A stretch of 64,000 bases of DNA, from positions 101,849 through 165,848 of IMG/VR virus record IMGVR_UViG_3300042549_008312, one strand, 5' to 3'. The notes below the pieces were generated by a model that had not been told where the DNA came from, made no database searches, and was given only the letters and a program-made list of their open reading frames with translations. Positions 43,140 to 46,241 of this stretch are shown here, piece by piece. Numbering within the stretch: position 1 is the first letter of the stretch; each line of letters starts with the position of its first letter. This DNA comes from a virus. The translations under genes were made by a program, and so were the position numbers.

Positions 43140-46100
43140 ATGGCCGAATACAAAATTTCCCTTGAAGAAATAGAAAAATTTTTAAATGGACACAATGATG
43201 AGAAATACATTGTGAATGTTGAGTACGATGCCGAAACTAATCTAATCCATAAGGTTAAACAAGATCCTGAAAGAGGTAACTATGTCGAAACAGAACCGTT
43301 ACTCGCTTTCATGTGGATTAAAAATCTTAATAAGATTAAGGAATTAACCAATTTTTATGGTAATAGCGATTCAAAGATTAAATCTGCTAGACAAAGATTT
43401 GGTATTGAAATTAAATCTTTAGGTGGTGATCACCCAAAACTACTTGAGGGTTATAGATACTTGGTCACTTGTAATCAAGGTAATAAAAGAATGTTAGATT
43501 TCTTCAGAGAAGGTGGCATCTATGTCTATGACACAAGAAACGATATTAGATCACACTTTTTAATGATATCACCTGTTGAACAATACTTTATACACACTGG
43601 TAAACGTTTGTTTAAAGGGTATGAAGAATATGATGATATTCATAAATTTATATTTGACTTAGAGACAACAGGTTTAGATCCACATATCAATAGGATATTT
43701 TTGATTGGTGTCTATACTAATAAAGGTGTTAAAGAAATTATACCAGTTGAGGATGATGATGAATCTGAAAGACAAGCAATTACAAAATTCTTCGAGGTTA
43801 TTAATGACATTAAACCAACAATTATTGCTGGTTATAATAGCGCTAACTTTGACTGGGATTTCTTTTTTGTTCGTTGTCAAAAACTTGGATTAAATATTCA
43901 AGATATAGCTATAACACTTAAACCAGGTGAGCTTATCCAAAGAAAAGAAAAAAGCGTACTTAAACTTGGTAATGAGGTGGAAGAATATACACAAACTAAT
44001 ATGTTTGGTTATAGTGTTATTGACATTATCCACTCAGCTAGGCGTGCACAAGCAATTGATTCAAGTATGAAGTCAGTTGGTTTAAAGTATGTTTGTAAGT
44101 ATAACAAGATTGCCAAAAAGAATCGTGTTTACATTGTTGGTGATAAAATTGGTAATACATGGTACTCAAAGGATAAATTCTATTTTGACGATAGAACTGG
44201 TTCGTACACTAAAACAAAACCAGCTTTAGAGTTTATGGATTACATTCGTAGAGAAGACATCCAAGCTAATCCAGATAAAATATTTGTTTTTGGTGATAAC
44301 ATGACGAGGCAAGGACTTGGTGGTCAAGCAAAAGAAATGCGTGGTGAACCAAATGTTATCGGTGTTGTAACAAAACATTCACCAGAATCAACACCTGAAT
44401 CTTATTTTAATGACAAAGATTTTGATTCCATTAAAAAATATATTGATACTGATATTAATCAGATAATTGAAAAGATTAAAGAAGGTAAAACTATTGTGTT
44501 CCCTAAAATGGGTATTGGTACAGGTTTGGCTCAGTTAGATATGAGAGCACCAAAAACTTTTAAATATCTAATAGATTTATTACGTGCATTACGTGATTAT
44601 ATTAACACCTTCCAAGAAGTTGACGGTAAATATATTGTTGAGCGTTACTTGGTTGATGATTTATGGGAAACCATGGAAGTTGATGCCGTTTATAATCAAT
44701 CATCATTCTTGTTGGCTAAATTGGTACCGACAACGTACCAAAGGGTATCGACCATGGGTACAGCTGGGTTATGGAAGTTATTGATGATGACATATTCATT
44801 TGAAAATGATTTAGCGATACCTGTATCAGATGTTAAAAGAGATTACACGGGTGGTTTATCAAGGTTATTTAAAGTTGGATACTCAACCACTTTAAGAAAG
44901 ATGGACTACAATTCACTATACCCAGCTATTCAATTGGCTCATGATGTATTTCCGAGTGTTGATGTTAACGGTGCAATGAAATCGATGTTAAAGTATTTCC
45001 ACACTGAACGTTTTAACGCTAAGAAATTATCTGACAAGTACAAAAAAGAGGGTAATTACCAATTAGCTGACAAATATAAACGTAAACAGTTACCACTTAA
45101 GATCTTTATTAACTCGATGTTCGGTGCCCTTGGAGCACCAATGGCTTTCCAATGGGCTGAAATTGATGTCAGTGAACGTATTACATGTACGGCAAGACAA
45201 TACCTTAGACTGATGGTTACATTTTTTGTTAAACGTGGTTACACACCTTTGGTACTTGATACGGATGGTGTGAACTTTATGGCCCCTAAAAACGGTGAGC
45301 ACTATACATATATTGGTAAAGGATTAAACGATGAAGTTGAAGCTGGTAAAGAATATACAGGTGTTAAAGCTATAGTCGCTGAATTTAACGATACGTACAT
45401 GCGTGGTGAGATGGGCCTTGGTTTGGATGGTATTTGGCCAGCAACCATAAACCTATCAAGAAAAAACTACGCTTTATTAGAAGATGATGGATCAATTAGT
45501 TTAACTGGTAATAGTATCAAGTCAAAAGCTATGCCTGTTTATATTGAGGAGTTTTTAGCTAAAGGCATGAAAATGTTATTAAACGGCCATGGTTATGATT
45601 TTGTTCAATATTACTATGAATACGCTGAAAAGGTTTATAATAAAGAGATACCGTTAGCAAAAATTGCCACAAAATCTAGAGTTAAGAAATCAATAAACGC
45701 TTACATAAATCGTGGTGGTGATAAAAATGGCAGACAATTGGCTAAACAAGCTCACATGGAGTTAGCGATTAAACATGATATTGATGTTAATCTTGGTGAT
45801 ACAATTTATTACGTTAATAACGGTAAAACAAAATCGCATGGTGATGCTCAAGAAGATAAACACGGTGAAATGTACGCAACATTAGTACCAAATGATATTA
45901 TTGAGAACCAACCAGATTATATTGGTGAATATAACGTACCAAAATATTTGGAAGCCTTAAATAAAAAGGTTGAACCGCTATTAGTTGCTTTCTCTCTTGA
46001 TGTTAGAGATAAAATTTTAATTAAAAAATCTGGTGAAAGAACAATGTTCTTAAGATCTGAATTAGATTTAGTAAATAACCAGCCAACCGATATTGAAGAC

Positions 46101-46241
46101 CAAGACACCTTGGAAGAATTTTTCACACCATCCCCAATGGAAAAAGAATTCTGGGCTAAAATGAAATATGAATCTGATTATTGGTTTTCAGATGAAATAA
46201 GATTTAAAATACCTGGTCTAGATGAAGAATTTACGGTTTAG
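43140..46241 (+). CDS. Family B DNA polymerase with a macro-like domain inserted in the exonuclease
   Basis: 1,033 residues. Proofreading motifs: Exo I FDLETTG (near 170), Exo II YNSANFDWDF (near 232), Exo III in RYLVDDLWETMEVD (near 502). Polymerase motifs: A in MDYNSLYPAIQ (near 588), B in KIFINSMFGALG (655-664), C in LDTDGV (near 706; the usual form is DTDS). Between Exo II and Exo III, residues about 364-487 hold a separate domain: IFVFGDNMTRQGLGGQA, GEPNVIGVVTKHSP and IVFPKMGIGTGLAQL, the pattern of a stand-alone macro-like phage/bacterial domain (I know it as DUF7831-like). No intein splice motifs are visible at its edges. The gene has a host-type promoter and is alone in its unit. Confidence 0.95.
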   Translation: MAEYKISLEEIEKFLNGHNDEKYIVNVEYDAETNLIHKVKQDPERGNYVETEPLLAFMWIKNLNKIKELTNFYGNSDSKIKSARQRFGIEIKSLGGDHPKLLEGYRYLVTCNQGNKRMLDFFREGGIYVYDTRNDIRSHFLMISPVEQYFIHTGKRLFKGYEEYDDIHKFIFDLETTGLDPHINRIFLIGVYTNKGVKEIIPVEDDDESERQAITKFFEVINDIKPTIIAGYNSANFDWDFFFVRCQKLGLNIQDIAITLKPGELIQRKEKSVLKLGNEVEEYTQTNMFGYSVIDIIHSARRAQAIDSSMKSVGLKYVCKYNKIAKKNRVYIVGDKIGNTWYSKDKFYFDDRTGSYTKTKPALEFMDYIRREDIQANPDKIFVFGDNMTRQGLGGQAKEMRGEPNVIGVVTKHSPESTPESYFNDKDFDSIKKYIDTDINQIIEKIKEGKTIVFPKMGIGTGLAQLDMRAPKTFKYLIDLLRALRDYINTFQEVDGKYIVERYLVDDLWETMEVDAVYNQSSFLLAKLVPTTYQRVSTMGTAGLWKLLMMTYSFENDLAIPVSDVKRDYTGGLSRLFKVGYSTTLRKMDYNSLYPAIQLAHDVFPSVDVNGAMKSMLKYFHTERFNAKKLSDKYKKEGNYQLADKYKRKQLPLKIFINSMFGALGAPMAFQWAEIDVSERITCTARQYLRLMVTFFVKRGYTPLVLDTDGVNFMAPKNGEHYTYIGKGLNDEVEAGKEYTGVKAIVAEFNDTYMRGEMGLGLDGIWPATINLSRKNYALLEDDGSISLTGNSIKSKAMPVYIEEFLAKGMKMLLNGHGYDFVQYYYEYAEKVYNKEIPLAKIATKSRVKKSINAYINRGGDKNGRQLAKQAHMELAIKHDIDVNLGDTIYYVNNGKTKSHGDAQEDKHGEMYATLVPNDIIENQPDYIGEYNVPKYLEALNKKVEPLLVAFSLDVRDKILIKKSGERTMFLRSELDLVNNQPTDIEDQDTLEEFFTPSPMEKEFWAKMKYESDYWFSDEIRFKIPGLDEEFTV

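Follow-up and report, generated by a model that had tools for sequence, protein, structure and literature searches.

Few phage proteins are as highly conserved as the replicative polymerases, and it is unusual for the proofreading half of such an enzyme to contain an accessory domain that was acquired. The locus described here, a polymerase gene with an additional domain inside its exonuclease, raises the question of what this domain is, how it came to be there and what it may do beside replicating DNA. The gene lies in a window of 64,000 nucleotides (positions 101,849–165,848 of IMG/VR record IMGVR_UViG_3300042549_008312), and coordinates below are those of the window unless another source is named.

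The polymerase and its inserted domain

The polymerase gene, with the motifs and segments described in this section, occupies positions 43140–46241 of the plus strand and encodes 1033 amino acids in a reading frame that is open throughout. The product matches the Pfam families DNA_pol_B_exo1 (E = 4e-11) and DNA_pol_B (E = 5e-9), as well as phrog_262 (E = 3e-44). It contains the full set of motifs of a family B DNA polymerase with a 3′–5′ exonuclease, with key residues that vary little or not at all among relatives. The exonuclease part comprises Exo I (FDLETTG, residues 172–178, 43653–43673, with D173 and E175 invariant in the alignment), Exo II (NSANFDW, residues 233–239, 43836–43856, with F237 and D238 invariant), and Exo III (YLVDD, residues 503–507, 44646–44660, with Y503, D506, and D507 invariant), so the exonuclease motifs are intact on both sides of the additional domain, as had been noted in a preliminary description of the sequence. 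In the polymerase part, motif A (MDYNSLYP, 44901–44924) has invariant D589, L593, Y594, and P595, and motif C (DTDG, 45258–45269) has invariant D707, T708, D709, and G710. The best structural matches of the AlphaFold2 model of the full 1033-residue protein (pLDDT 87.2, pTM 0.78) are archaeal PolB enzymes (9N, KOD, and Pyrococcus abyssi). The Exo III segments align, with that of the window polymerase falling on the Exo III helix of Pyrococcus PolB. However, the archaeal enzymes have only a short segment before Exo III, whereas the phage model contains an ordered domain.

This domain (residues 364–479, 44229–44576) belongs to the Pfam family DUF7831 (PF25176). The match scores 149.8 bits (E = 3.7e-44; the gathering cut-off is 27 bits) and covers positions 2–117 of the 118 profile positions, and the insert also matches phrog_2072 (E = 4e-15). 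The preliminary description had placed a second, complete domain between Exo II and Exo III at 44231–44600, in good agreement with the Pfam boundaries, and all the motifs that it quoted (VFGDN, GGQA, GVVTKHSP, and GIGTGLAQL) are present. In the alignment with relatives that lack the insert, the whole segment that stands in place of their short loop extends over approximately residues 357–489 (44208–44606). The FGDN and GxGGQAKEMRGE motifs (residues 384–403, 44289–44348) are 93–100% conserved in 44 non-polymerase members of the family and presumably form a ligand or active site; within the GIGTGLAQL motif (residues 458–466, 44511–44537), G460 and G462 are 98–100% conserved in the same members. 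When the insert alone was modeled with AlphaFold2 on 49 DUF7831 sequences, a compact domain with four strands and three main helices was obtained (pLDDT 93.2), i.e. the insert is predicted to fold separately.

Elsewhere, DUF7831 is found as a separate gene of ∼125–210 codons, normally ∼130, or as a part of a very large protein, whereas here it is located inside a DNA polymerase. The stand-alone phage proteins (PF25176; phrog_2072; for example from Caulobacter, Rhizobium, Sinorhizobium, and Ruegeria phages) contain the same domain over its full length, are 40–50% identical to the insert and have the conserved motifs and predicted fold in common with it, in line with the initial view that the domain is usually a separate, uncharacterized phage protein. 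They start a few residues before and stop a few residues after the segment that is homologous to the insert, so the polymerase loop holds the sequence of an entire small protein. The family is widespread, giant viruses of eukaryotes included, and it also occurs within very large proteins, stretches of which resemble DarB-like antirestriction proteins, virion RNA polymerase (L248, with marginal scores), and internal virion protein families (L239). A literature search returned no paper that names DUF7831 and none that describes such a polymerase insertion. The architecture is real and is not described in the literature searched.

Insertion site and phylogenetic distribution

The insertion site is a length-variable loop of the proofreading domain, directly before the Exo III helix. 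The polymerases without the insert that were compared (L025, L026, L028, L030, L033, L034, and L132–L199, and the more distant L266 from a Paludibacteraceae MAG) have at this position only a short, variable stretch, with a conserved ‘NRVYVxGDKI...G.Y’ segment before it and the Exo III helix after it. In L132–L199 and in Salinibacter phages, which have the same polymerase and exonuclease motifs as the window, the loop measures roughly 10–45 residues, compared with ∼130 in the window polymerase. Insert-bearing polymerases have about 130 residues at this site, and their flanks stay in register with those of the relatives. Identity to the window polymerase is about 46–50% for L132–L199, the relatives from IMG/VR, and about 25% for the Salinibacter phages. 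On Pyrococcus PolB, the site falls in the short stretch that leads into the Exo III helix from its N-terminal side. An alignment of related polymerases, which had been suggested as a check, thus revealed an insert that is shared within one clade and precisely absent at the same place in relatives.

Exactly one DUF7831 domain, always in the polymerase, was found in all 31 sampled IMG/VR contigs of the insert clade, which come from many metagenomes, and none was found anywhere on the 19 sampled IMG/VR contigs of insert-less relatives, many of the contigs being fragments. The recurrence of the insert at one place in all 31 contigs goes well beyond what chance would give. In a maximum-likelihood tree of 47 polymerases, calculated with the insert columns removed, a branch supported at 100/100 separates all 14 insert-bearing representatives from the rest, and the presence or absence of the insert requires one change of state. 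Because the insert-bearing polymerases are monophyletic, one acquisition accounts for the pattern, and we infer from these sequence comparisons that the insert was acquired once, in the ancestor of the clade. The fused architecture was present in no phage record in a protein search of INPHARED, and no polymerase of a cultured phage in that search has the insert. A polymerase search of bacterial genomes returned distant relatives only; the best one, insert-less, was located in the Paludibacteraceae MAG, which is a suggestion, though no proof, that the host belongs to the Bacteroidota.

In a tree of DUF7831 sequences, the polymerase inserts group with one domain of the 1954-residue protein of L248 (100/91, from few columns). 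This protein (L248, 3493–9354) has marginal similarity to DarB-like proteins and virion RNA polymerase, and its DUF7831 copy is the one nearest to the polymerase inserts; the L248 lineage is a possible donor. One insert-bearing lineage, L008, falls into the group of the window polymerase in the polymerase tree and next to L009 in the insert tree (AU test, p = 0.003, 131 columns). Members of the clade may have exchanged insert alleles, or the conflict may be a long-branch effect.

Several relatives have interruptions of another kind. In the insert-less L033 and L034, an intein-like insertion of ∼340 residues splits motif C (D-TDG, at the equivalent of residue 707); in L033 it has no Pfam intein match at E ≤ 0.001, and splice-like blocks were recognized in it by eye. 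The L035 polymerase is of the same length as that of L033 and is likewise without an uninterrupted DTDG. In two further polymerase relatives (L036, 5001–9577; L037, 4892–9512), the coding sequence is distributed over several open stretches, which may represent split genes, introns, or sequencing errors.

Conservation and loss of residues in the insert

Selection on the insert was assessed with a set of 25 family-conserved columns, defined as those at least 93% conserved in the 44 non-polymerase DUF7831 members. The insert of the window and those of its near relatives keep all 25 residues (including FGDN, GxGGQAKEMRGExN, TK, P, and GxG), and 23–25 are kept in the other intact lineages (L008, L021, L049, L050, L129, L213, L219, and L224), the inserts of which are only 40–49% identical to that of the window at the remaining columns, a range that applies to every lineage except the window's close relatives. 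In contrast, 16–19 of the 25 are left in L009, L013, L014, and L016. The residues lost there include G385, G395, and A397, and the replacements differ between the two sublineages (G385D and G395Q in L009, G385S and G395E in the L013 group), while their exonuclease and polymerase parts stay conserved. The DUF7831 score is also weaker in 7 of the 31 insert-clade contigs (103–118 bits, compared with about 148–156 bits). The dN/dS of the insert is mostly above that of the flanking exonuclease and polymerase parts, yet well below 1, and where residues were lost it is still less than 1, although many of the underlying dS values are near saturation.

This pattern argues for strong purifying selection on the family-conserved residues in most lineages. 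Since these residues are kept there, the domain probably does something of its own. Their site would then be selected in most lineages and dispensable in the two in which the polymerase nonetheless stays conserved, and the insert appears to have a function that is selectable but dispensable.

Gene neighborhood and possible roles of the fused domain

Hints at this function come from stand-alone copies. Five uncultured phages (L053, L067, L069, L098, and L106) have a gene for nicotinamide phosphoribosyltransferase (NAMPT) no farther than about 2.1 kb from their stand-alone DUF7831 gene. An NMN-adenylyltransferase-Nudix-like gene goes with it, and the genes are not arranged in one and the same order throughout. 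The same pair is found about 2.5 kb from a stand-alone DUF7831 gene in an isolate, Mesorhizobium phage Cp1R7A-A1 (MT188704.1, 49239–54593), so that in all six phages the pair is no more than about 2.6 kb away. Since four of the five uncultured phages have further neighbors in common, the independent cases number perhaps about three, with the isolate included. A survey of 48 loci, from which 13 were left out and in which genes shared within one phage lineage were set aside, yielded one other recurrent neighbor, a YspA-type SLOG gene (three loci, two of them from the same phage), and no conserved partner beyond this gene and the NAD-salvage pair. Taken together, the neighbors of DUF7831 and the large proteins that contain it point to host takeover, counter-defense, or nucleotide handling, and the handling of an NAD/ADP-ribose-type nucleotide is hinted at, but only hinted at. 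NAMPT is absent from the record that contains the window and is present in only one of 23 insert-clade records, so any connection of the fused form to NAD is indirect.

The preliminary description had called the domain macro-like, and this is the part of it that did not hold. The Pfam Macro HMM (PF01661) matched none of 49 DUF7831 members at E ≤ 1. It also had no match in a set of 50 phage records, of which about half have the insert in the polymerase and most of the others a stand-alone or embedded DUF7831. The hhalign comparison of the two families gave a probability of 0.2%, with a Macro profile that is thin (two sequences only, YmdB and DR_2288); a scan of viral sequences for further YmdB relatives found none. 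The structure prediction and fold search that had been proposed gave a separable, compact predicted fold and revealed no macro resemblance. A Foldseek search of the PDB with the insert returned no match at E ≤ 0.001 and no Macro domain among the 50 best matches, and no solved structure is credibly akin to the insert (triosephosphate isomerase, at E = 0.05, is probably a chance match). Against viral models, nine matches at E ≤ 0.001 were obtained, none of them listed as a Macro domain: six proteins named DUF7831, two other large proteins of uncultured phages, and one further match. The predicted domain also has four strands, compared with six in the Macro core (PMC9503650). The likeness is confined to glycine-rich motifs (FGDN, GGQA, and FPxxGxGTG) and an alpha/beta make-up that are alike by eye, with no similarity found in sequence, profile, or fold. 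Membership in the Macro family was rejected on these grounds, and it is very improbable, even with the NAD-salvage neighborhood of the stand-alone copies in its favor, that the insert is a genuine macrodomain acting as a reader or eraser of ADP-ribose. A further reading, in which DUF7831 senses or acts enzymatically on a nucleotide of the NAD/ADP-ribose type (a soluble signal or a DNA adduct) and is placed by the fusion at the replication fork, where it would, for example, remove defense-made adducts from the template or tune proofreading to the state of NAD-based host defense, is also improbable, if less strongly so; the loss of residues in two sublineages with a conserved polymerase speaks against a clade-wide sensor.

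An ordinary subdomain of this polymerase clade without a separate origin, an intein, or an assembly chimera would be consistent with the fixation of the insert in the clade and with nothing else, and such an origin can hardly be right. Like the PolB inteins, with which the intein-like insertions at motif C of L033–L035 may be compared, the insert is an in-frame insertion into a phage polymerase. However, it lies in the exonuclease domain and is homologous to a stand-alone protein, it has no intein family match at E ≤ 1, and its junctions lack splice motifs on inspection, as the preliminary description had also remarked. The homologous stand-alone proteins, the empty sites in relatives, and the recurrence of the same insert in 31 contigs from many metagenomes led to the rejection of all three variants.

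The explanation that we favor, with a probability of roughly 0.38 for the whole of it, is that the ancestor of a clade of uncultured large phages gained a complete DUF7831 domain in a single event. The domain would have landed in frame in the length-variable loop before the Exo III helix, and the exonuclease and polymerase motifs are intact. The insert would work as an accessory module that is tethered to the polymerase and has its own small-ligand or catalytic site, a reading that follows from the strong purifying selection on the family-conserved residues. It is probably not needed for polymerization, because two sublineages lost conserved residues and yet keep the domain. Its most likely role, suggested by the gene neighborhoods, would be to bind or process a nucleotide, possibly one derived from NAD or ADP-ribose, beside replicating DNA, and a counter-defense or nucleotide-handling activity would thereby travel with the polymerase. 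Against this explanation stand the lack of a related solved structure, the rarity of NAD-salvage genes in insert-bearing phages, and the dispensable site in L009 and L013–L016. Alternatively, the insert could be a structural or interaction module that no longer needs a ligand. It would then present a rigid surface to which DNA, the clamp, or some other protein of the replisome binds, or would guide the primer strand toward the exonuclease site. The insert adjoins the Exo III helix, and all members found have retained it, including those that lost family-conserved residues, in which dN/dS is still below 1. However, a structural module leaves unexplained why 23–25 of the 25 residues, common to stand-alone proteins that are not part of any polymerase, are kept in most lineages, and we regard it as unlikely. 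Passive cargo, i.e. a mobile small gene or fragment that is tolerated in a permissive loop, would account for the variable loop length among relatives, for the faster evolution of the insert relative to its flanks, for the conserved residues missing from it in two lineages, and for the hint of allele exchange in the conflicting trees. It is difficult to reconcile with the retention of the insert, in an intact reading frame, in all 31 contigs and with the purifying selection that acts on family-conserved residues in every other lineage, and is doubtful.

The fusion is a concrete hint at the site of action of DUF7831, which, at least in these phages, works, or once worked, as a physical part of the replicating enzyme. 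Polymerases that lack the insert, have it intact, or have a residue-depleted version of it form a natural test set that can be compared for fidelity and escape from defense.

The surroundings of the polymerase gene in the window (36899–62447) contain genes for a SNF2-type helicase, a GP88-like protein, and a dUTPase, and a run of glycosyltransferase genes.
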